From: a virus
IMG/VR virus record: IMGVR_UViG_3300025887_000101
Location: 1 to 30,766 of that record
Strand: one strand, 5' to 3'
Length of the DNA: 30,766 nt
Shown: positions 1,921 to 30,766 of the stretch, in pieces
Layout of the letters: each line of letters begins with the position of its first letter
Numbering within the stretch: the first letter of the stretch is position 1
Notes under the pieces: generated by a model
The model's input: only the letters and a program-made list of their open reading frames with translations
Told to the model about the DNA's origin: nothing
The model's database searches: none
Position numbers and translations under genes: made by a program

Positions 1921-3426
1921 ATGGAAAACGTTAGAGAACCAATCAAGGTGGGTGACTACCTGCAAGTGAAGCGCGGCTCAGTTACTGCGCACTGGTGTGA
2001 AGTCGTGGCTATATCACAGTGTGGTAGGCACATCGTGTATACGGGCCAAGGCCTCTTGGATACGCACCTATTCTTTGAGCCAAGGCTGCGTGAGTATGCA
2101 TCAGCTGGTGATGTATACGACATGGCTGGCTCAGTCTTTGATAGAAGTGGGATCAAGCCGTCCAAGTATGGCACAATTGATGAGGTGGCCGCTGTCCTGT
2201 TGCAAACAGCTATGACATCCTCTCACTCTCAGCCTTGGCGTCCTTTCGTCTCCTTCTTGGAAGGTAACTATTCAGGTGCTGGTATCCAGTATGATGGTCT
2301 ATGTGAGGCCGATCGTGCCCTAGCTATATTCAAGCCAGAAAAGGTGGAGGGTAGCTCAGCTATCAGTCTCTACCTTAACGCCAAGGACGCTAAGCGTGAG
2401 CGCCGTACAACAATGAAAGGTGGTCGTGCGTTCAAGCACATGTTCAACCACCTGTCCGATAAGGAGATTGCCGCTTTAGCTGAGGCATGGATCGAGGAGA
2501 GTTCACCTCGTGAGTTCGTTCTCAAGGTAGGTGGTGAGCGTAAAGACTTTCGCAGGGCATACTGTGGTGTTCGTGCTAAGTATCGCAACCCAGCAACAAC
2601 TAGCTACCGTAAGTCTCTTGCTACCTCATGTATGCATACCACCAAAGTAGATGATGGTTGTGAGAACATGTCACCAGCTGAGGTGTATGCATCAGGTGAC
2701 TTCAAGGTTGCTTGGCTAGAGACGCTGGAAGGCCACATAGCGGCCCGTGTTGTGTTCTCAGCTAGGGTAGACACCCAGTCGTACCATGCACCCATCTACG
2801 GAGCCTGTGAGCAATCCTTAGACATGCTTGACACCTACTTGCAGGATAACAAGGTAGAACTGTCCTCTGACTTAGGTGAGTGGCATAGCCTCAAGCTTCT
2901 GAACATAGAGTCGAATGGTCGCACCGTTGGCCCATACATGGATGGATGCATCAGGGGTAACGTTAGCGGTGACCATATCGTTCTGTCACACAGTGGAGAC
3001 CTTGACTTTGACTCCACTGATGGTTACGCTAGTGATGGTGAGATGTGTGCTCACTGCGGTGATAGTGTTCATGAGGATGAGCTATACCATACTGACGATG
3101 GTGGCCTTTGCGAGCACTGCTTCAATGAGAACTTCGCTTACACTGAGGGTGGTGACGTTATCCCAGCTGAGAATGCTGTCTATGCTCTGAATCGTAGCTC
3201 ATGGAATGGTAACTGCTACGAGATCTGCGTTCACATTGATGATGCTGTATTCTGTGAAGACCTTGACCAGTATTGGGTTGAAGAAGATGTTACTTACTCT
3301 GAGTGTGGTGACTATGCTATCCCTACCCACCTCATGAAGGACTACCCTGCGTATTTCCCTAGTGAGTTCGGGGAAGATGATGATGAAACAACTAACAACA
3401 ACAACATAGAGGAGGAAGCAGCATGA
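1921..3426 (+). CDS. 501-aa phage protein with C-terminal zinc-ribbon region
   Basis: No family I can name. The N-terminal 40 residues (VGDYLQVKRG, then a VVAIS strand) look like a small beta domain. Residues 60-120 are alpha/beta and 150-230 are rich in Arg and Lys. Around residues 375-400 there is a clear Cys4 zinc-ribbon pattern, CAHCGDSVHEDEL followed by LCEHC, and more Cys lie further on (CYEIC, FCEDL, SECGDY), suggesting a second degenerate ribbon. The C-terminus is very acidic with an Asn run. It overlaps the following peptidase gene in an ATGA junction, so the two are probably co-translated. A ribosome site AAAGGG precedes the start. Function unknown; nucleic-acid or protein binding through the ribbons is a reasonable guess. 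Confidence 0.8.
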   Translation: MENVREPIKVGDYLQVKRGSVTAHWCEVVAISQCGRHIVYTGQGLLDTHLFFEPRLREYASAGDVYDMAGSVFDRSGIKPSKYGTIDEVAAVLLQTAMTSSHSQPWRPFVSFLEGNYSGAGIQYDGLCEADRALAIFKPEKVEGSSAISLYLNAKDAKRERRTTMKGGRAFKHMFNHLSDKEIAALAEAWIEESSPREFVLKVGGERKDFRRAYCGVRAKYRNPATTSYRKSLATSCMHTTKVDDGCENMSPAEVYASGDFKVAWLETLEGHIAARVVFSARVDTQSYHAPIYGACEQSLDMLDTYLQDNKVELSSDLGEWHSLKLLNIESNGRTVGPYMDGCIRGNVSGDHIVLSHSGDLDFDSTDGYASDGEMCAHCGDSVHEDELYHTDDGGLCEHCFNENFAYTEGGDVIPAENAVYALNRSSWNGNCYEICVHIDDAVFCEDLDQYWVEEDVTYSECGDYAIPTHLMKDYPAYFPSEFGEDDDETTNNNNIEEEAA

Positions 3427-4388
3427 GTAACGTAACAAGACACACGCTGATAAACCTACTGCAAACCATGCGTCCAGCCTACTCGCTGACTGAACGTAGG
3501 TTCTGTGAGACTTACCTTGAACCTACATTCGGTAAGCCTGACGCACATGGTAACTATATCTTGAGTGTAGGCAACAACCCAACGATTGCCTTCACTGCCC
3601 ATACCGACACTGTCCACCGCACTGAGGGTGTTCAGACCCTATCCGTGGAGAACAACTTTGTTACTTCTATGACGGGTAGTTGCTTGGGTGCTGATTGTAC
3701 TACAGGCCTTTGGTTACTCTTAGGAATGATCGAAGCGGGTATCGAAGGTGTCTACATTGCCCATGCCGCCGAGGAAATCGGTGGGGTCGGTAGCTCCAAA
3801 CTGGTAGAGGACAACCCTGCTTGGCTCTCTAATATCCAAGTATGCTTGTCTTTCGATAGGTTCGGCACCAACAGTGTCATCACCCACCAAGGTGGTAGGC
3901 GGACAGCTAGTGACGACTTTGCGGAATCCCTCGCGGATATCCTTGGGATGCCACAGCTTAAACCCGACACGACAGGGACCTACACAGACAGCATGGAGTA
4001 TGCTGGTATCGTGCCTGAGTGTAGCAATCTCAGTGTCGGATACTACGATCAGCACACGTCTAAGGAGTCACAGGACATACTCTACGCTGAAACACTGCTT
4101 GAGAGGCTCTGTAAGGCCGACTGGAGCGCCTTGGTGGTTTCTCGTGACCATACCCAGCCTATAACGTATGACGACGCTCTACGGTCCTCTTATCAAGATG
4201 CCTCTGATGAGGTGAATGAGGAGGACATAGACGCCATTACAGCTCTACTCCTTGACAGGCCACGCCTGATAGCCGAGCTTCTATATGATTACGGCTTGAC
4301 TATCGACGTGCTGGCTGACGAGCTAAAGCTTGACTACTCAGATATGAGATATTATACTGATGAACACTCAGCTAAGTCTTATTATTAA
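3423..4388 (+). CDS. M20-like zinc metallopeptidase
   Basis: The protein carries the ligand pattern of M20/M28-clan di-zinc peptidases: HTDTVH with His60 and Asp62, GADCTTG with bridging Asp91, AEEIGG with the catalytic Glu117-Glu118 pair, FDRFG with Asp145, and QHTSKE with His211. All five expected metal-ligand positions and the catalytic glutamate are present, so it looks enzymatically competent. Residues 1-245 form the catalytic region; the last 75 residues are an extra helical acidic tail. No dimerisation (lid) insertion of the usual M20 size is evident. No signal peptide, so it should act in the cytoplasm on peptides or amide-linked small molecules. It overlaps the upstream gene by 4 bases. 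Substrate unknown; amidohydrolase activity is an alternative. Confidence 0.75.
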   Translation: MSNVTRHTLINLLQTMRPAYSLTERRFCETYLEPTFGKPDAHGNYILSVGNNPTIAFTAHTDTVHRTEGVQTLSVENNFVTSMTGSCLGADCTTGLWLLLGMIEAGIEGVYIAHAAEEIGGVGSSKLVEDNPAWLSNIQVCLSFDRFGTNSVITHQGGRRTASDDFAESLADILGMPQLKPDTTGTYTDSMEYAGIVPECSNLSVGYYDQHTSKESQDILYAETLLERLCKADWSALVVSRDHTQPITYDDALRSSYQDASDEVNEEDIDAITALLLDRPRLIAELLYDYGLTIDVLADELKLDYSDMRYYTDEHSAKSYY

Positions 4389-4620: not shown

Positions 4621-4650
4621 TTGACAAGGTGCCTAACTGTTTGTTATACT
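4621..4650 (+). promoter_or_regulatory. Strong sigma-70 promoter with extended -10
   Basis: TTGACA at 4621-4626, an 18-base spacer ending in TGT, and TATACT at 4645-4650. This is a consensus -35, an extended -10 (TGn) and a near-consensus -10. It lies in the 152-base gap between two genes and should drive the unit from 4764. Four other promoters in the window share the same design. Confidence 0.85.
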
Positions 4651-4763: not shown

Positions 4764-4988
4764 ATGAGACATTCACCAGTATCATTCCACGAGGAGCTTG
4801 AGGAGATTATGGATCAGATGTCCGACGATGATATGTCGGTAGGTGATAAGCTTGATGTAGCAATCTCCTTAGCTGGTCTCCTCCTACTTCGAATAGATGA
4901 CCTTCAAGGCTTCGCAGTAAGCAAGGGTCTAACTGACAAGGACTTCCAAAGATACATTGAGGGTATTTCGAATGTCACATACCATTGA
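4764..4988 (+). CDS. Unrecognised 74-aa helical protein
   Basis: First gene after the promoter at 4621, with an AAGGAG ribosome site eight bases upstream of the ATG. Acidic N-terminal half (EELEEIMDQMSDDDMS), then a Leu-rich helix around residues 30-45 and a short basic C-terminal helix. Probably a small all-helical soluble protein. Its end overlaps the next micro-ORF by 17 bases. Function unknown. Confidence 0.7.
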   Translation: MRHSPVSFHEELEEIMDQMSDDDMSVGDKLDVAISLAGLLLLRIDDLQGFAVSKGLTDKDFQRYIEGISNVTYH

Positions 4989-5073
4989 CACCGTCGATGA
5001 TCCCTGCGATGATATCAGTGAGAACATTGACAAGTGGATCAGAACCCTAACACCAAAGACAGAGGAGACCTAA
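4972..5073 (+). CDS. Micro-ORF, 33 aa, acidic
   Basis: A 33-aa frame beginning MSHTIDTVDDPCDDI and ending in TPKTEET. It starts inside the previous gene with a GAGG element nine bases upstream. Its last codons contain the GAGGAG ribosome site of the next small gene. Without it there would be a gap of nearly 90 bases in an otherwise gapless operon, which favours it being real. Function unknown. Confidence 0.45.
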   Translation: MSHTIDTVDDPCDDISENIDKWIRTLTPKTEET

Positions 5074-5076
5074 CAG

Positions 5077-5256
5077 ATGTTTATAACACTTGACACAGCT
5101 CTACCAGTCATCACGTTACTTATCGTAGCATATCAGTCATATAAGCTGTATGAGCTAGACAAGGACATGGATGACCTAGTAGACAAGCACAACGACTTCG
5201 TGGAGAGTGTAGCCACTGTCTTCGACGCCATCATTGAACAAACACCAGAGGAATAA
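5077..5256 (+). CDS. Small membrane-anchored coiled-coil protein, 59 aa
   Basis: Residues 1-23 contain a hydrophobic stretch (LPVITLLIVAYQS) that could span the membrane. The rest is a charged helix (YELDKDMDDLVDKHNDFVESV) with heptad-like spacing. This N-in, C-out or C-in layout resembles small phage membrane proteins such as i-spanins, but the helical part is short. GAGGAG lies eight bases upstream of the ATG. It ends four bases before the collagen-like gene, whose ribosome site is in its last codons, so the two are likely co-expressed. Function unknown. Confidence 0.55.
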   Translation: MFITLDTALPVITLLIVAYQSYKLYELDKDMDDLVDKHNDFVESVATVFDAIIEQTPEE

Positions 5257-5260
5257 CACC

Positions 5261-5893
5261 ATGAAAACCATCATCACAACAACCGCAATCATCCTGCTAA
5301 TGACTACAGCAGCAACAGCAAGCCCTAAGACTTGCCCAGTTAAGACAAACACAAGCGGCGTACAGATCATCAAGAATGGCTGCGCTGCCTTTGTAGGTGG
5401 CACAGGCGCTACAGGCCCTCAGGGGCCCCAAGGAGAGCAAGGTCCACAAGGTGAGCAAGGGGTATCAGGTAATGACGGACAAGACGGCGCACAGGGCCTT
5501 ACAGGGGCTAATGGAACAAACGGAACGGATGGAACAGATGGACAAGACGGGACCAACGGTACTAACGGTGTTGATGGTATTAATGGCACAGATGGGGCTA
5601 ATGGCTCTGACGGTTCTGCTGGTCGTGACGGTGTAGATGGTGCTGACGGAGACAAGGGAGACACTGGTAAGGATGCTGTAGCACCACTAGGCTCACTATC
5701 CTTTGCAGCAGCTAGTGCAACCTTATACGGGGATGGTATCGGCTTTGGTCTATCTAACTCTAACTACGGTAGCCTTGAAGGTTCTATCGTGGTAGGCTTC
5801 GACCTTGATAACGACTGGCGCTTGGTGGGTGGTATCACTACAGACTTCAACGGTAAGACTGCGGTATCTGTCGGCCTCGGCTACAACTTCTAA
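5261..5893 (+). CDS. Secreted collagen-like protein with YadA-like outer-membrane anchor
   Basis: The start at 5261 gives a clean signal peptide: Lys2, a hydrophobic run to about residue 16 and a TAATA cleavage site near residue 20. A short head with two cysteines (Cys25 and Cys41) follows. Residues 46-137 are about 30 uninterrupted Gly-X-Y triplets, first GPQGPQGEQ and then many GTDG/GTNG units. Residues 143-210 hold a predicted helix and four amphipathic strands ending in GLGYNF, with a terminal Phe. This matches the trimeric YadA-type membrane anchor and BAM recognition signal. The collagen stalk and YadA anchor both trimerise, so the architecture is a miniature trimeric autotransporter. 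It would sit in the host outer membrane, not the virion. Surface modification or exclusion of other phages is a guess. A tail-fibre role is disfavoured by the signal peptide. Confidence 0.8.
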   Translation: MKTIITTTAIILLMTTAATASPKTCPVKTNTSGVQIIKNGCAAFVGGTGATGPQGPQGEQGPQGEQGVSGNDGQDGAQGLTGANGTNGTDGTDGQDGTNGTNGVDGINGTDGANGSDGSAGRDGVDGADGDKGDTGKDAVAPLGSLSFAAASATLYGDGIGFGLSNSNYGSLEGSIVVGFDLDNDWRLVGGITTDFNGKTAVSVGLGYNF

Positions 5894-5905
5894 AGGAGAA
5901 CTAAC

Positions 5906-6142
5906 ATGCTACTCAAGGTAGAAACAATCGAGAAGGTACAAGGCAGCTCAATCCAAGAATTCTGGACTGCACCTATGTATATCGTGAACGGTGAGTTCTT
6001 GGCCTCGTCTATTGACCGCCATAACATTCAAGGTAAGCCCTTCGACTTAAAAGAAGGTGAGACGGTGGAGGTGCTTACCAAACCCGATAGTCAGTCCGAC
6101 AGGTTCACATGGATAGCCCGCAAGTATACGCAAACGAAGTGA
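5906..6142 (+). CDS. Unrecognised 78-aa protein
   Basis: Good AAAGGAG ribosome site ahead of the ATG and a 12-base gap from the collagen-like gene. The protein begins MLLKVETIEKVQ and looks like a small beta-rich domain: strands near residues 2-10, 20-33, 52-58 and 66-73. No Cys, no membrane segment. Its position directly after the secreted protein does not by itself imply a shared role. Function unknown. Confidence 0.7.
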   Translation: MLLKVETIEKVQGSSIQEFWTAPMYIVNGEFLASSIDRHNIQGKPFDLKEGETVEVLTKPDSQSDRFTWIARKYTQTK

Positions 6143-6155
6143 TAGGAGAACTACT

Positions 6156-6353
6156 ATGACTAAGGAAACACAAGCACAGATCGACTCACTACTCCGAATG
6201 ATTGCACTGAACCAAGGACGAGTAGACAGCCTGATCGAAGAGCATGGTCATGGGTGTCGCCCCTCCTACGTTAGTGAGGAGCTATGTCACTACGGGGAAC
6301 GAGTGGAACGTTACAAGGCTGAGCTCAAAGAACTACAAGGGGAACCTAAATGA
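6156..6353 (+). CDS. Small coiled-coil protein, 65 aa
   Basis: Two helices with heptad-like leucines (TQAQIDSLLRMIALNQGRVDS and YGERVERYKAELKELQGE) flank a loop containing one Cys and several His. This is a helical-hairpin pattern. AGGAGA lies seven bases upstream. The stop overlaps the start of thyX in an ATGA junction, so it is translationally coupled to it. Function unknown. Confidence 0.65.
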   Translation: MTKETQAQIDSLLRMIALNQGRVDSLIEEHGHGCRPSYVSEELCHYGERVERYKAELKELQGEPK

Positions 6354-7012
6354 CTAACCAGATAACAGCAACTTACATCGACCACTGCGGATCGGACCTA
6401 TCAACTGTCAACGCAGCACGGGTTAGCTTCGGTAAGAGCAGCCATTTTGAAGGACGGGTAGGTGGCCCTAACGTACTGTCAGACAGAGACACTAAGCTAA
6501 TCAACTACCTAGCCAAGCACAAGCACCTATCACCCTTCGGGCATGCCTTCTCATCCTTCCACGTCAAGGCTCCTATCTTCGTAGCACGTCAACTAGTCAA
6601 ACACCAATACCTACGTTGGAATGAGATCAGTCGTCGGTACGTTGATGATGAACCAGAGTTCTATGTACCAGAGGTATGGCGTGGACGAGCAGAAAACGTG
6701 AAGCAAGGTAGTTCTGGGACAGTTAAGTTACCTGCTGACTTAGTTGGAAATATGGCAAAGTCAGCTAAAGAGGATTACCAATATTTACTGGACATAGGTA
6801 TTTGTCCTGAGCAGGCACGTATGGTACTGCCACAGTCTACAATGACTGAGTGGTACTGGTCAGGTAGCCTTGATGCCTTCGCTAACATGTGCCGACTTCG
6901 TTGTGCTACAGATACACAAGCAGAGACACGGTTAGTTGCAGATGACATTAGCAAGAAGATGTCTGAACTATTCCCTGTGTCGTGGGCCGCTTTAATGGTC
7001 TGTAGATCATAA
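6350..7012 (+). CDS. thyX: Flavin-dependent thymidylate synthase ThyX
   Basis: ThyX methylates dUMP to dTMP using methylenetetrahydrofolate and NADPH via FAD, giving thymidine for phage DNA. The family motif RHRxxSxNExSxRY appears at residues 84-97 as KHQYLRWNEISRRY; Arg to Lys at the first position and Ser to Arg in the middle are deviations, but the NE and RRY core is intact. The conserved block near residues 160-180 (ARMVLPQS, TEWYWSGS) and the RLRCATDTQAE segment are also present. At 220 aa it has the usual length. It fits the later nucleotide genes (class II RNR, glutaredoxin, MazG-like) as part of a DNA-precursor set. ATGA overlap with the gene before it. Confidence 0.92.
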   Translation: MTNQITATYIDHCGSDLSTVNAARVSFGKSSHFEGRVGGPNVLSDRDTKLINYLAKHKHLSPFGHAFSSFHVKAPIFVARQLVKHQYLRWNEISRRYVDDEPEFYVPEVWRGRAENVKQGSSGTVKLPADLVGNMAKSAKEDYQYLLDIGICPEQARMVLPQSTMTEWYWSGSLDAFANMCRLRCATDTQAETRLVADDISKKMSELFPVSWAALMVCRS

Positions 7013-18157: not shown

Positions 18158-18234
18158 CTTCTCTTAGCTCAACTGGATAGAGCAAGTCACTTCTAATGAC
18201 TAGGTTACAGGTTCGAGTCCTGTAGGGAAGACCA
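18158..18234 (+). tRNA. tRNA-Arg (anticodon TCT)
   Basis: A full 77-base cloverleaf: a 7-bp acceptor stem CTTCTCT/AGGGAAG, D arm GCTC/GAGC, anticodon stem AGTCA/TGACT with loop CTTCTAA (anticodon TCT, reading AGA), a 5-base variable loop and T arm ACAGG/CCTGT with TTCGAGT. The CCA end is encoded. It would supply AGA/AGG decoding, which is often rare in hosts with moderate to high GC. Confidence 0.93.
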
Positions 18235-23932: not shown

Positions 23933-26900
23933 TTACTTGTTAATACCAGCTAGGTAATCCATAGTATCTCTGGATTCGATCAGCCCCTTGATACCAGCTA
24001 GCTGTACAGTTGTGGCATCTCCGATATCTTCAAGACCCATCTCAGCTACAGCCCACTCTAAGTCAGCAGCAGGATACTTCTTATGCAGTGAGAACCGGAT
24101 AGACATATCGTTGTTTGGATCACGGGAACCCTCTACGTATAGCATAGTCTCTGCATACTTCTTAGCATTTGCAACAATATTATCCACCATGATACGCTTA
24201 TACCGCTCAGGCTTATTAGCGAAGTCGTTCTCTTCCCACTCGTAAGTTGCCTTATCGTTAATATAGCTAAAGAAGATGTTGTGGTAACGGTTAGCGGCTT
24301 CTGGAGCCTTATTGGCAATAGACACAGCGATATTAAGGGTAAACGGTTCAATGCCTACGTTGTTCAACAAACGCTCTGTATTGGTTAGGTTGAGAGTCCT
24401 AGCACCGATGAGAGCAGTAGGCTGTACATCTACAGCACCTTGAGCCGAAGAGTACTTCTGAACAGGCTCTTTACCTGTAAGTAGAAGTGAAATCTGGTCA
24501 AAGTTACGGAGAGCTGTGTTAGCTACGTGCCCAAGACCTTGCCGACGGTCTGGTGTGATATAGGTGTCCCTGTTCATTACACCTACGGCAGTATTGACAG
24601 CACCAATAGGACGAGTTGCAGCAGCTACAACCTGTGCACCTACGGAACCCATGACGCCTTTAGTCTCAGCCCAAGCAGCTGCTGTGTCACCAGAGATTAG
24701 AGCCTCTGCTACAGCTACAATATCGTTCTGAGTAGTAGTCAAGTTCTTAGTTAGACCACCCAAGCCAAACTGCTTTTCAAACTGAGCAGTAATCTCTTTA
24801 GGAACCTCTTTACCTTCCATGTGATAGGAAGCGATACGAGCAGCATACTTGAAGAAAGAAGCTGGGTAATCGAACTTAACGTCAACTACTTCGCCTGTAT
24901 TATCGATGTCTTGTCCGATACCCAAACCAAGACCTCGTAGGTACGTCTCACGGTCAGCCATTGTGTAGATCAGTGTAGTCCCCACAAGAGCCTTAGAGAA
25001 GACCTCCTTGAAGCTACGGTCCTCGTACTTCCCCATAGCCTTCATAACAAGACCAAGCGGTGTAGCAGCAGTAGAGAAAGACACAGTGTTGTTAAAGAAG
25101 CGACCGAATGGAACCATCAAACCGATACCTGGAATCTTACGTGCATCCTCGATAACAGCTGCTACTTCCCCAATGGCGTCCTTACCTTTGAATGACTTAG
25201 AGAAGATACCTTCCATAGTGCGGTTTACTGCACCAGCTTCTAGTTCACGGTACTCCTTTGTACGCATTACCTGAGATAGAGCTGGGTTCTTAGTAGAGTC
25301 AAAGAACTCGTTGTAACCACCCTTGAATCGGAGGGTACTCCCATCTTCCAGCTTAACGCCAGTAGTACGCAAAGCTTTATCAATCTGGTACATAAACTCC
25401 TGAGACTTTGTTAAGGCATCCTGCCCTTGCACAAAGGTAGCCCGCTGTAGGCCATCGACAACAGAATCAACACGAGACCCCACCATCAACTCCTTAGGGG
25501 AGAGTTTACCACTGAACAAGTCCTTAGTAGTCTGTTCAACACCACCGGACGTGATGTCATTGAGGTCACCTAGGAACTGGCTGCGTACACGCATGTAGTC
25601 CTCGAAAGCTTCTCCTGTAGCCCTGTTATCAAGCAGGAGGCGCATACGGTTACCTACTGACTTCAGCATACCAAAGCCTACGTCAAGGTCAGCCTTCGCC
25701 CCTTGGGAGCCTACAACAGCCTTCATCGTACCGTGCCCAACGTGGAGCAAGGCCTGTGACAAATCAGACACAGTGTTAAAGGCTGCACCACCTGCCCAAC
25801 CAGATACGTTGAGAGCAGAAGTAGACGGGTGTGCCACAAGAAGTCGTACAACACGTCCTTGGTAATCAGACACTAGCTTACCTACTTTACCTACTGACCC
25901 AGCCGAGGACCAACCAGCATCGAGTGCCTTATCGACGAAGGTAGCTACGTCCAGCTTAGAGATGTCTATTTGGTTTGTGATCTGAGCAGCACGTCCAATA
26001 GCACCCAAGGATGAGCCAGACTCACTCGACTTACGAGCGAATAGGTTACCGAAGTCCTCAGGGGAGATACCATCGAGCTCCTTAAAGTTCATCTTAAAGT
26101 TCTGCTTAAGTACAGACACCAAGTCAGATACTTCCTCAGGGGAGGCATCCTTGATAATGTCAGCCATCCAATCAGAGTAGAGATCATCCCTATTCTTCTT
26201 AACGTGCACAAGGCCACGTTCATTTGTTATCTGAGCAAGGCCCTTAAAGTAGACCTCACCTGTATCAGCGTTGGCACGACCCAAGAGTAAGTCTTGGAAG
26301 AACTCAGTGTCAGGAGCCCTTACATCTTTACCAGCTGAAACCTTCTGAGCCCATGTACCTGACTTAGGCACAGTCTCATCTGAGTAGGCTTTAAGGGAGT
26401 CTGTAAGCTCTGTAATCAAGTTCTTAGTAGTAGGGATTTCCACCTCGAGGGATGGCATCTTGACACCAGAAGCTCCCTTTGTTAGTACACGTGCAGCTTG
26501 TACACCACCTAGAACGGCACCCCCTACAAAGGCTAGGCCAACGGCTAGCTCATCGACATCGTCTCGAACACCTAGCTCAATCAAGTTACCTTGGTATAGT
26601 GTCTCCATACCTGCGTTAACGATACCATCGATAGCTGTAGTACCTGCAATGTCTTTCAGAGCAGAAGTCTGAGCTAGACGGGCAATACCATTCTTAGATG
26701 CCAGTGCCTTAGCTGCAGCACGGTTAGTGGCAGTCATAGCCGCAGACTCCGAACCCTCTCGGATAATACGGGACATGACAGTGTTACCAGCACTACGTGC
26801 AGCCTTTGTAGCTACCTCTTGAGTAGCGCCCTTACCTAGCTGAGCTGCAAGAACTTTACCGAACTCCTTGATGCCCTGCCGCTTGACTGCTTCAGTAGCA

Positions 26901-27745
26901 ATACGACCACCAGCTCCAGTAGCCAGCTTACCCCACCCGAGGGTTACAAGGTTAATTGGGTCAAGGATAACACCTTGTGTGTAGTCAACGACTGCCTGAC
27001 CAAGGTTAGACCAAGAAGAGCTCTTAGAGAAGGAGCCCTCTGCATTGTCGAAGATGCTATAAGCTTCAGCTGTGTTACGGACTCGATCAGCATCACCTTC
27101 AAGACTCTTGATATAGGAGAAATCAGCTAGTCCACGTACAGTGTTACCAGACGACGTTGAGCGACGTTCCTGTACAAAGGCATCAATCACTTCTTCTTGT
27201 GAATGCTCCTTAACCCAAGACGAACCCCTCCGGTCAGACATGTGAGCCAGAATAGGTTTAATAAGCTTATCATCTGTATAGAAGTCGTCTACAGTATAGG
27301 TCTGAGCTTCTACACCTTCTGGCAAGAAGTTCCAAGTAGTTGCATTCTTTTCATTAGACTCCACTTGTTCAGTTGAGAGGGGATTACCCTCCCGATCAAA
27401 GCGTGGCTTAAAGGTATCAATACTATCTAAACCAGTTACAGGTTCAATAGCAGTCGGGGGAAGATCAACAGGAATAGCTTCCTCAGTCTGTGTGTCTACA
27501 TCACTTACTAATGGGTTACCCTCTCGATCAAAGCGTGGTTTAAAGACACCTGGTTCTGTAACAACAGGTTCCTCTTGTACAGGTGCAGGTTCTTCAGACA
27601 CAGGAGTAGGCTCAGGGGCTGCAGGAGCCGCCTGAGGTACTGGTGTAGACTTGAGGGTATCTCCAAGTCGATTGATAGGACGACCTAACTCATCCTTCTC
27701 TTCAGCTACATTTACAGGTTTAAAGGTATCAGATAGACCAGCCAT
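23933..27745 (-). CDS. Large internal virion (ejection) protein, T7 gp16-like by size and order
   Basis: A 1270-aa protein. Residues 1-130 are Pro/Glu-rich and probably disordered, with the 12-residue motif FKPRFDREGNPL twice (about 68 and 113) and a related TFKP at 8. The remaining part is largely helical and Ala-rich, with amphipathic or hydrophobic stretches such as DPINLVTLGWGKLATGAGG and LAFVGGAVLGGVQAARVL that could insert into membranes. Size and position as the last of three virion genes match T7 gp16 (1318 aa), which forms the ejection conduit. No N-terminal lytic transglycosylase motif was seen, in contrast to T7 gp16. Ribosome site TAGGAG before the start. No RNA polymerase motifs were found. 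Confidence 0.75.
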   Translation of the reverse strand: MAGLSDTFKPVNVAEEKDELGRPINRLGDTLKSTPVPQAAPAAPEPTPVSEEPAPVQEEPVVTEPGVFKPRFDREGNPLVSDVDTQTEEAIPVDLPPTAIEPVTGLDSIDTFKPRFDREGNPLSTEQVESNEKNATTWNFLPEGVEAQTYTVDDFYTDDKLIKPILAHMSDRRGSSWVKEHSQEEVIDAFVQERRSTSSGNTVRGLADFSYIKSLEGDADRVRNTAEAYSIFDNAEGSFSKSSSWSNLGQAVVDYTQGVILDPINLVTLGWGKLATGAGGRIATEAVKRQGIKEFGKVLAAQLGKGATQEVATKAARSAGNTVMSRIIREGSESAAMTATNRAAAKALASKNGIARLAQTSALKDIAGTTAIDGIVNAGMETLYQGNLIELGVRDDVDELAVGLAFVGGAVLGGVQAARVLTKGASGVKMPSLEVEIPTTKNLITELTDSLKAYSDETVPKSGTWAQKVSAGKDVRAPDTEFFQDLLLGRANADTGEVYFKGLAQITNERGLVHVKKNRDDLYSDWMADIIKDASPEEVSDLVSVLKQNFKMNFKELDGISPEDFGNLFARKSSESGSSLGAIGRAAQITNQIDISKLDVATFVDKALDAGWSSAGSVGKVGKLVSDYQGRVVRLLVAHPSTSALNVSGWAGGAAFNTVSDLSQALLHVGHGTMKAVVGSQGAKADLDVGFGMLKSVGNRMRLLLDNRATGEAFEDYMRVRSQFLGDLNDITSGGVEQTTKDLFSGKLSPKELMVGSRVDSVVDGLQRATFVQGQDALTKSQEFMYQIDKALRTTGVKLEDGSTLRFKGGYNEFFDSTKNPALSQVMRTKEYRELEAGAVNRTMEGIFSKSFKGKDAIGEVAAVIEDARKIPGIGLMVPFGRFFNNTVSFSTAATPLGLVMKAMGKYEDRSFKEVFSKALVGTTLIYTMADRETYLRGLGLGIGQDIDNTGEVVDVKFDYPASFFKYAARIASYHMEGKEVPKEITAQFEKQFGLGGLTKNLTTTQNDIVAVAEALISGDTAAAWAETKGVMGSVGAQVVAAATRPIGAVNTAVGVMNRDTYITPDRRQGLGHVANTALRNFDQISLLLTGKEPVQKYSSAQGAVDVQPTALIGARTLNLTNTERLLNNVGIEPFTLNIAVSIANKAPEAANRYHNIFFSYINDKATYEWEENDFANKPERYKRIMVDNIVANAKKYAETMLYVEGSRDPNNDMSIRFSLHKKYPAADLEWAVAEMGLEDIGDATTVQLAGIKGLIESRDTMDYLAGINK

Positions 27746-27771
27746 GTGTTACTCCTACAGGTTTCTTATTG

Positions 27772-30228
27772 TTATTGATTCATAGCTAATACAAGGGCTT
27801 CTTGAACCTTCTCATCACCAAACTTCTCTTGCATTTCAATGATTAGAGCGTCGAGTTCAGCTTGATCCATACCGTTCCCAGAGAGACCCTTGACTATAGC
27901 TTCAATACCGACAGCTAGCTCTTCTTCGGGTGCTAGTGGTTTACCCTTAGCCTCTACGTATGGTGCTACTACGGCGTCTAGCGCAGACCGTACCTTAGGT
28001 GAGTTTAGTTCAGTTGCACCCATCTGTGTAGGACGGTAACCATCAGGCATCGACTTAGACTCTGTAGAGAGTTGATCAGACTCCATTCCAACCCGATCTA
28101 GACGTGACTGTTCCATTCGTCCTAGGTTTGTATCCCCAGCCGTTACTTGAAGTTCAGCCTCGACTATCTTCCGTGTCTCTGGGCTAAGCGCTTCGAGAAT
28201 CTTAGGTAAGTTCAACTCAGTTGCACCCATTTGTGTAGGGGTGTAACCATCGGGCATCGACTTAGACTCTGTAGAGAGCCTATCAGATTCAGCTCCTACT
28301 CGTCCTAGTCGGGACTGCTCCATCCGCTCTAGGTTTGTATCAGAAGCATTCTCAGGAGACCCTTGTACACCCGATTCAGATGGACGCACCCCTGTGTCTT
28401 GGAAGCCTACAGTGCCGATACGTTGACGACTGTCAGTAACAGGAATAATCTGTTGTATCCCACTTACCAGGGAATTAATAGCTTCCTTAACTGCAGCACC
28501 CTCTGGTGTTGAGCCCGTGTTAATCTCCTCACGAGTAGGAGGTTTCTTTAATTCAGAACCGTAGGCAGCTGCCATACGCTCTTCGTCACCTGTGTCACGG
28601 GTTAGACTCTCAGAGTAAATGTCGGCTATCTTCTGAGAAGCTTCTGCAGCAGAGATACCATTGTTCCAGAGATTACCTGCTACCTCATCAAGCTCACCTG
28701 CAGATTCAAACCAATCAGTTCCGTCTAGACCTATTGTCTCATTTACAAAACCAAGGCCTACACCCATCCAACTACCTACTTCAAGAGCAGAGCCTAGCGC
28801 CATACCAGCTCCTCGATCAGCACCTTTAAGCATATACTCTCCAGTCTTATTCCAAACGGTCTTAACAGTATCTGCTACTTTCTGAGCACCTTCCTGACCA
28901 AACGCTTCACCGTACTGTTCTCGGATGGCGACAGCACTGGCTTCAGGGAATACACCAAAGTCTTCTACAGATACTGGGGCACCCGTCTCGATACCGTATG
29001 AACCGCCCTCTGCCTTACCTGTGGCAAAACCTTCACTAGGTGTAAAGCCAGAACCGTACGTAATACGAGCTACACCTTCTTTACCAAAGACTTCTAGTGC
29101 TTGAGCCATAACCTCTGGATCATCTGGATTCTCTAAGAGAGCCTCCTTACGACGTTGTTCCTCAGCAGACTGTGCTGGACCTGAGCCTACAGGTGCGGCA
29201 CCCGGGATTGTAGCCCCATCAGCTGGTACGAGACTAGGGCTCTGTGTAACGTAGCCACGGAACATAGGATTATCCTTATACGCCCTAAACTCAGTAGGAT
29301 ACAGCTCTGCAAGTTCAGACAAGACCTGCTGTCCATGTGTACGCTTACGGCGCTCCATAATAACGTCCCGAGCCGCTCCATCGGGGGCGCTATAGTACTC
29401 ACTTAACTCAGTCTCACCCATAGTAGACAGAATACCTTGTTCAAAGGCAGTTTTCTGATTCTTAAACAACTCAGGACGCTGCTTATTTATGTCTACAAAG
29501 TTAGTCAGGTTAGCATCGATTGTAGCTGAGTTTAGATTTATAGCCTTCAGGTCAGTAAGCAATTCAAGAGATTTGCTGTAACCCTCTGGGGTAGTCATAT
29601 CCAAGTTATTGATAGTAGCAAGGTACTCAGCTGCTTTCTTCTTGTTCTCTGCATAGCCAGGGACCTGAGTCACACGGATAGTCTCTCGAATTTGGGATGC
29701 TGTTGGCATAGTGCCAGTAGTACCCTCAATCTTCTTAATAAGAGACCAGAACTCGTGTGCATCTGCAGGGTCCGTAAGAGTTTCACTAACAGAGGTAATG
29801 TAGTCTACATCTTCTTGAGAGGTAGTATCGTCTGACAAGCTGGTCTCAAGCCAGCCGTTTAACTTAAGAACGCTATCCTCTAGTGTTTTTGGAGCAGGAA
29901 TAGGACCTTCACCACTACCACCGGTAGCAGGGGGAGTTACACCACTGCCAGCCGCCAAACGGGCTGCAGTCCGTACAGCTGCATTCTGCTCAGCTTGTGT
30001 TCGGTCGTAAGTTCCTTGAGTACGGAGTTCTGCGGAGGCAGTATACTCATCAAGCTTAGCTTGCCGCTTCAGGTTAATCTCATCCATCCGACGACGATAT
30101 TCAGTCTCTTCATTCCGGTACGCACGATCCTCGTCGCGAACAGACTTACGCTCCTCAGCCAGAGCTTCCTGTTGGTCACGCACTTCAATATCCTTGGTAG
30201 CCTGTACTACTCCAGCCCAAAATGACAT
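27772..30228 (-). CDS. Internal virion protein, T7 gp15-like by size and order
   Basis: An 818-aa protein. Residues 10-90 form a long charged helix (EVRDQQEALAEERKSVRDED and beyond), likely coiled coil. A Gly/Pro linker follows near 90-115, then helical domains. Near residues 470-500 is a Gly/Ala-rich segment (GAGMALGSALEVGSWMG) that may be membrane-active. The C-terminal third holds two 48-residue repeats (28199-28342 and 27992-28135 on the reverse strand) sharing RMEQSRL, LSTESKSMPDGY and PTQMGATEL. Position between the gp14-like and gp16-like genes and similar size to T7 gp15 (747 aa) support an ejection-protein role. One-base overlap with the upstream gene. Confidence 0.7.
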   Translation of the reverse strand: MSFWAGVVQATKDIEVRDQQEALAEERKSVRDEDRAYRNEETEYRRRMDEINLKRQAKLDEYTASAELRTQGTYDRTQAEQNAAVRTAARLAAGSGVTPPATGGSGEGPIPAPKTLEDSVLKLNGWLETSLSDDTTSQEDVDYITSVSETLTDPADAHEFWSLIKKIEGTTGTMPTASQIRETIRVTQVPGYAENKKKAAEYLATINNLDMTTPEGYSKSLELLTDLKAINLNSATIDANLTNFVDINKQRPELFKNQKTAFEQGILSTMGETELSEYYSAPDGAARDVIMERRKRTHGQQVLSELAELYPTEFRAYKDNPMFRGYVTQSPSLVPADGATIPGAAPVGSGPAQSAEEQRRKEALLENPDDPEVMAQALEVFGKEGVARITYGSGFTPSEGFATGKAEGGSYGIETGAPVSVEDFGVFPEASAVAIREQYGEAFGQEGAQKVADTVKTVWNKTGEYMLKGADRGAGMALGSALEVGSWMGVGLGFVNETIGLDGTDWFESAGELDEVAGNLWNNGISAAEASQKIADIYSESLTRDTGDEERMAAAYGSELKKPPTREEINTGSTPEGAAVKEAINSLVSGIQQIIPVTDSRQRIGTVGFQDTGVRPSESGVQGSPENASDTNLERMEQSRLGRVGAESDRLSTESKSMPDGYTPTQMGATELNLPKILEALSPETRKIVEAELQVTAGDTNLGRMEQSRLDRVGMESDQLSTESKSMPDGYRPTQMGATELNSPKVRSALDAVVAPYVEAKGKPLAPEEELAVGIEAIVKGLSGNGMDQAELDALIIEMQEKFGDEKVQEALVLAMNQ
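27992..28342 (-). repeat. Two 144-base in-gene repeats in the gp15-like protein
   Basis: Copies at 27992-28135 and 28199-28342 are separated by 63 bases and keep the reading frame. They encode 48-residue units with conserved RMEQSRL, TESKSMPDGY and QMGATEL segments. The protein matches more closely than the DNA, suggesting an old duplication kept for function. Confidence 0.85.
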
Positions 30229-30766
30229 TATACTACACCCTCATTCTTAGACGGACGTGACATCAGACCACCGGTAGGTGCTGCTGGCTCTTCGCTCATC
30301 ATAGCTTCATTATCCATCATACCTTCAACAGGCATCATCTCTTCTTGTTCGTCTGTTGTATCTGTCTCACCCGAAAGGAAGTCAGTAGTCTCACCAGTCT
30401 TCTCTTCGTACTCATCAAGAAGCTTACGAGCCTTCTTGCTATTGATGGCATACTTAACCCTACGCTTCTCTTTACTCTCGTCAGGGAAACCCTCTTCGTA
30501 CTCAATACCAGCTTGGTCAGCACTGCTCTTAATGAACTCATGGATGATTGGTGCAATGATAAGAGAGACATCAACACTGTGACGACCATCCATAACAGCA
30601 CCACGAAGGATACCACTCGTTAGCGTGACGACGTCCATGCCTAACTCCATAGCGTCTAGGAGGTCCTCTGTCTTATCAGCTAGTCGATCAAGGTGCCAGA
30701 ATACAGCATCCTCAGGCTTAGTCATCTGAGGAGGGTTCTCGTAGGGTGCGTTCTTAGGTTCTGCAG
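30228..30766 (-). CDS. Virion-associated protein, gp14-like position, cut by window edge
   Basis: The frame is open through the right edge; codons upstream of the first ATG (at 30725) read AEPKNAPYENPPQ and lack a ribosome site, so the true start is probably outside the window. Visible: a helical region (VFWHLDRLADKTEDLLDAME), a hydrophobic/amphipathic region (VDVSLIIAPIIHEFIKSS), a basic helix (INSKKARKLLDEYEEKTG) and an acidic, Met-rich disordered tail. First of three reverse-strand virion genes, in the place of T7 gp14. Function is inferred from order only. Confidence 0.6.
   Translation of the reverse strand, partial: AEPKNAPYENPPQMTKPEDAVFWHLDRLADKTEDLLDAMELGMDVVTLTSGILRGAVMDGRHSVDVSLIIAPIIHEFIKSSADQAGIEYEEGFPDESKEKRRVKYAINSKKARKLLDEYEEKTGETTDFLSGETDTTDEQEEMMPVEGMMDNEAMMSEEPAAPTGGLMSRPSKNEGVV

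Follow-up and report, generated by a model that had tools for sequence, protein, structure and literature searches.

The closest described counterparts of the protein discussed here are the 'agglutinating adhesins' of two lytic phages, gp119 of phiEco32 (ABY52920) and a protein of FSL SP-076 (AGF88343). Both share with it a signal, a short segment with two cysteines, collagen and a YadA-type anchor, and in both phages, as here, the adhesin gene lies outside the virion block. Their anchors are clear members of PF03895 that end in Trp and are separated from the collagen by a neck, whereas the anchor described below belongs to a separate clade that stays under the Pfam threshold, ends in Phe and has almost no neck. 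The trimeric autotransporter adhesins (TAAs, type Vc) YadA, Hia and AtaA share with the protein, as modeled, the order of signal, passenger and C-terminal helix plus four strands; however, it is far smaller, is phage-encoded and has collagen in place of the YadA head and long coiled coil. The immunoglobulin-binding Eib proteins (P-EibA, C, D and E) are also phage-carried TAAs with a YadA anchor, but they are encoded by E. coli prophages and not by a lytic phage, and we know of no collagen in them. A collagen triple helix protein of 168 aa from Synechococcus phage S-ESS1 (ARB05735) is similar in its signal-like N-terminus, two cysteines and short collagen run, and its C-terminal beta domain matches our anchor model, although more weakly (Foldseek E 0.05); it differs in its shorter stalk and in an extra C-terminal tail past the beta domain. 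A further likeness is that its gene is found near thyX and an AdoCbl ribonucleotide reductase, opposite to the tail genes. Finally, Llp of T5 is a superinfection-exclusion lipoprotein and an early, phage-made outer-membrane protein (PMC9586334). The likeness to Llp concerns the proposed role only, as this periplasmic lipoprotein, which jams FhuA, is unlike the present protein in architecture.

The window analyzed here is the whole 30,766-nucleotide stretch of viral DNA in IMG/VR record IMGVR_UViG_3300025887_000101. An earlier note had read one of its genes as a miniature TAA, and the ORF and 210-aa translation that it gave agree with ours (Table 1). Signal peptides were called throughout from hydropathy and the -1/-3 rule applied by eye. 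The protein starts with the hydrophobic segment MKTIITTTAIILLMTTAATA, the best 10-mer of which has a KD hydropathy of 2.53, followed by allowed -1/-3 cleavage sites (A18-T-A20 before S21), consistent with the putative signal peptide that had been proposed. A signal-like N-terminus of the same kind (hydrophobic core, -1/-3 sites) is present in all seven homologues, among which the MKT start and the cleavage region are conserved, and the head cysteines C25 and C41 are kept in three homologues in the alignment. A search with the signal and head part alone gave no new combinations. Cysteine pairs occupy the same place before the collagen in the proteins of S-ESS1 (L219, 38662-39168), phiEco32 (L220, 41719-42516) and SP-076 (L221, 6792-7754); in these unrelated phage proteins they possibly form a disulfide clamp at the tip of the rod.

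Table 1. Coordinates of the adhesin-like gene, its predicted parts and its neighbors within the window.
Feature	Coordinates	Strand	Basis
Candidate sigma-70-type promoter, TTGACA-18-TATACT; upstream of genes 4764-7012	4621..4650	+	Consensus match only: 11/12, TG before second hexamer
Small protein of 59 aa with one N-terminal hydrophobic stretch; stop 4 bases before adhesin start	5077..5256	+	No Pfam match
Whole gene, 210-aa collagen-stalked trimeric-autotransporter-like protein	5261..5893	+	ORF, translation, Pfam, AlphaFold, Foldseek
Putative Sec signal peptide, aa 1-20, cleavage between ATA and SPK	5261..5320	+	Hydrophobic core, -1/-3 rule, conservation in homologues
Short head, aa 21-45, with C25 and C41; distal rod tip if exported	5321..5395	+	Alignment
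Collagen stalk, aa 46-138, 31 Gly-X-Y triplets; ~27 nm if triple helix	5396..5674	+	Pfam, shuffles
Predicted C-terminal membrane anchor, aa 140-210; helix and 4 strands, terminal Phe	5678..5890	+	AlphaFold, Foldseek, profiles, alignment
Thymidylate synthase (thyX), downstream neighbor; nucleotide/replication context	6350..7012	+	PHROG; 58% identical to P12053L ThyX

The stalk, previously put at about 30 Gly-X-Y triplets, counts 31 without interruption; shuffling the protein 20,000 times gave runs of 10 at most. Pfam Collagen (PF01391) matches the stalk with E = 1.9e-15. With a rise of 0.286 nm per residue, the homologues would have rods 11 to 66 nm long if these form triple helices. The best PHROG matches of the protein are tail fibers, the better of which cover essentially the collagen stretch; we rejected the tail-fiber identity that these PHROG names would imply, since it is the collagen that produces the matches. 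Likewise, the whole-protein matches in genomes that were read cover collagen only.

The C-terminal 71 aa were modeled with AlphaFold2 from a seven-sequence alignment, giving one helix (residues 145-152) and four strands (159-166, 172-181, 186-195 and 200-208) with a pLDDT of 80 and a pTM of 0.66 for the monomer, in line with the four-strand anchor ending in Phe that the earlier note had claimed, whose residues 140-210 are the span modeled here. When this model was compared with the PDB using Foldseek, the first four matches were the anchors of Hia (3emo, 2gr7 and 2gr8) and AtaA (9vnj), each at probability 1.00, with YadA (2lme) at rank 7 and probability 0.96; the E values of the PDB anchor matches ran from 3e-3 to 0.3, ~3e-3 being the best. 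No family other than TAAs reached a comparable probability there (0.96-1.00 for TAA anchors), so that a search that could have refuted the proposed YadA-type C-terminus favors it at the level of the model. Among viral models the named top matches were phage YadA-like proteins, including the 'agglutinating adhesin' of phiEco32. Bulky hydrophobic residues alternate along the strands (p = 2.5e-4) and the last residue is Phe in 7/7 aligned anchors; as predicted, the segment has the helix, the four antiparallel strands after it and the aromatic last residue by which the type Vc anchor fold is recognized. A collagen stalk and four strands per chain are compatible with three chains. A single-sequence AlphaFold run on the homologue in contig L084 reached a pLDDT of 33, and a sequence search of the PDB found no relative of the window protein.

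The profile comparison suggested by the earlier note gave a divided answer. In a six-frame scan of eight records, PF03895 (YadA_anchor) matched in four, in every case at this protein's C-terminus, but all matches lay under the curated cut-off: none of the members reached 22.7 bits, the best scoring ~14.7. The cut-off marks what Pfam counts as detected and sets no condition on structure, but by sequence the protein is at most a candidate member of the family. The window anchor alone had no match in Pfam, and sub-threshold matches to PF13505 (OMP_b-brl) appeared in two of the seven members. Aligned by hhalign to 41 anchors (30 bacterial and 11 from phages), the anchor clade of the window matched over its full set of four strands, up to and including the final residue, with Prob 61%; the score exceeded those of 500/500 column shuffles (200/200 in a separate run). 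The match in global mode, whose score 1/200 shuffles reached, was not convincing. The C-terminus as modeled has a YadA-type fold, and it is probably a divergent homologue of the YadA anchors. Using tblastn, neither the whole protein nor the anchor found anything among sequenced phages even at E 10, and the genomes of 84,980 species held no close relative of the anchor.

Relatives of the C-terminus were found on nine IMG/VR contigs, two of which are identical to the window in this part. In the seven aligned sequences 36 of the 71 anchor columns are invariant, and the anchor is kept in unrelated phages at ~70-80% identity with dN/dS of 0.07-0.20, so it is under purifying selection. The signal and anchor are constant, with 13, 18, 24, 31 or 77 collagen triplets between them in intact copies; in the L084 homologue the anchor is joined to a non-collagen stalk with an I..N.. 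pattern, read by eye as heptad-like, as in TAA stalks. Two side observations concern these copies. A homologue at 8001-8504 of L006 (the same contig as L088) has a stop inside the anchor and an altered 3' end, its signal and collagen being intact. Directly adjoining the stop of the L084 homologue is the start of a gene (6435-6719) for a small, secreted-looking protein of phrog_2315 with a signal-like N-terminus, a possible partner of the adhesin homologue.

The window is a fragment of a cobavirus-like podophage. Its ribonucleotide reductase and PhoH are 92% and 81% identical to those of Celeribacter phage P12053L, which points to a probable host in the Rhodobacteraceae. The adhesin gene shares the plus strand with thyX, primase and polymerase genes, and we infer that it is transcribed early. 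The candidate promoter in Table 1 is the best such site in 9 kb, in a region where the number of sites is not above chance. TTGACA/TTGACT motifs lie upstream of several copies by eye, and scans around the copies in contigs L085 and L089 found no above-chance site on the strand of the adhesin gene; a promoter of its own is plausible. We take the large minus-strand ORFs at 23933-30725 to be virion genes from the layout of P12053L; they had no match in PHROG or Pfam. The adhesin cassette lies upstream of thyX in the window, L087 and L084, and after the DNA polymerase gene in L005 and L006. L085 and L089 are siphophages related to each other, with 97.6% identity across 2.5 kb. The adhesin gene lies between terminase and portal in L085, and in L089 it is flanked by a head-tail adaptor gene and a gene of 388 aa; in each phage it runs opposite to the virion genes. 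The P12053L genome has no copy. With its variable sites and its absence from P12053L, the adhesin gene is a phage moron. Elsewhere on the plus strand, the gene at 955-1356 is S-adenosylmethionine-lyase-like (PF23780, under the cut-off; its P12053L homologue, P12053L_01, scores 33 bits) and a candidate anti-restriction gene. In L005 and L006, homologues of it immediately follow the adhesin gene. An M28-like peptidase gene at 3423-4388 (phage family phrog_4191, E 2.7e-76) is adjoined by a 501-aa ORF at 1921-3426, and a tRNA-Arg (TCT) gene is found at 18158-18234.

The wider phage record was examined for proteins of either kind. Among the other phage collagen ORFs, 72 had a start that could be read; by eye, ~2 of them have a signal or membrane N-terminus, and nine pass a crude hydropathy cut. 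The marks of a collagen tail fiber, namely no export signal and a gene in the virion block, are not those of the window gene. At E 1e-4, 61 records of sequenced phages contain an anchor of the phiEco32 type. All 11 phage YadA-anchor proteins that were read, from different lineages, have signal-like N-termini; the label 'tail protein' is attached to several, and collagen is present in four (phiEco32, SP-076, Erwinia RF1 and Munch). In phiEco32 gp119 and the SP-076 protein YadA_anchor is significant (E 4.5e-19 and 1.3e-19), and both genes are located in non-virion regions; gp119 is annotated from a start further upstream, and an internal Met opens its signal-like segment. The position of the SP-076 adhesin gene away from the tail genes was noted by the original authors (PMC3728262), and a YadA-anchor-like ORF has been reported from a T4-like phage, in a region that can be deleted (PMC5449768). 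Pantoea phage AAM22 (L227, 1562-4220) encodes an exported YadA-anchor protein, and its neighbor on the opposite strand is a collagen 'structural protein' with neither signal nor anchor, a pair that is a natural control for the two kinds of protein.

Given the putative signal, the anchor fold, the profile matches, the modularity, the purifying selection and the non-virion context, we consider the window protein to be an exported, outer-membrane-anchored, TAA-like protein made by the phage, with a probability of roughly 0.8; the destination proposed in the earlier note, the host surface and not the tail, is favored by sequence-derived evidence from the signal, the anchor and the gene context. 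By analogy with the families concerned, Sec would export the protein during infection, three chains would form a shared 12-strand barrel inserted into the outer membrane via BAM, and the collagen would thread outward as a triple-helical rod of ~27 nm with the two-cysteine head at its tip. A brush of such phage-made collagen rods could then cover the infected cell.

That the protein is instead a virion component, a collagen-bearing tail fiber or tail appendage, is highly unlikely. Collagen is common in phage tail fibers, which are the best PHROG matches of the window protein, the family that contains the SP-076 protein (phrog_26246) is named 'tail protein', cyanophage YadA-domain proteins have been detected in virions (PMC9146016), and structural operons of pelagimyophages contain collagen/YadA domains (PMC7029224). 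However, the PHROG matches lie essentially on the collagen stretch, and tail fibers, which are cytoplasmic in assembly, require no signal, ~97% of other phage collagen ORFs having none. The AAM22 pair and the opposite-strand copies of L085 and L089 also argue against it. If the C-terminus were a small beta domain of other origin, such as a collagen-trimerizing foldon, and the protein were secreted or periplasmic with no membrane anchor, the missed Pfam cut-off and the sub-threshold OMP_b-brl matches would fit; we regard this reading as improbable in view of the helix followed by four strands with alternating hydrophobic faces, the terminal Phe, and TAA anchors as the sole PDB matches at probability 0.96-1.00.

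If the protein is anchored in the outer membrane as we favor, its benefit may be superinfection exclusion, steric or receptor-directed, keeping other phages, sibling or rival, off the infected cell or its debris. This role, proposed by analogy and held tentatively at somewhat below even odds, is the one we prefer; early outer-membrane phage proteins are known for it, as with T5 Llp (PMC9586334). The rods could also make infected cells clump together or adhere to particles or algae, so that more hosts are reached at lysis. Autoagglutination and adhesion are the best-known activities of TAAs (YadA, AtaA), related proteins of phages bear the name 'agglutinating adhesin', and Rhodobacteraceae are frequently attached; against this, the tip has no recognizable adhesive head, only ~25 residues with two cysteines, and long-term adhesion suits prophages (Eib) better than a short lytic infection, for which a long-lived adhesin has no obvious use. 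We judge adhesion unlikely as the main benefit.

A phage-borne TAA is an already known kind of protein, even with collagen and a Pfam-significant anchor (phiEco32, FSL SP-076), and the window protein is a divergent member of this existing, under-described class. What is new is the marine clade, which has a sub-threshold anchor of its own, the stalk exchange and the mobility between podophages and siphophages, as well as the recognition that exported collagen-TAAs recur in lytic phages under the names 'tail protein' or 'agglutinating adhesin'. We found no literature describing the collagen architecture as a class, in a search that left subscription literature mostly outside. It is conceivable, though doubtful, that lytic phages of many lineages and hosts have in common a class of mobile exported mini-TAAs whose collagen or coiled-coil rods can be exchanged and which recoat the infected cell as a general superinfection-exclusion brush, misfiled as 'tail protein'.

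Exported stalk and outer-membrane-anchor proteins of this kind appear in unrelated phages of enterobacteria, Xanthomonas, probably marine Rhodobacteraceae and possibly cyanobacteria, and where examined their genes are mostly outside the virion modules. At 71 aa the anchors would be very small natural type Vc anchors with swappable stalks, and coliphage phiEco32 makes the question of their role directly testable in E. coli. If these proteins act on the infected cell, they would represent an overlooked route, shared among phages, to remodeling of the host surface, and the 'tail protein' labels in databases would be wrong.
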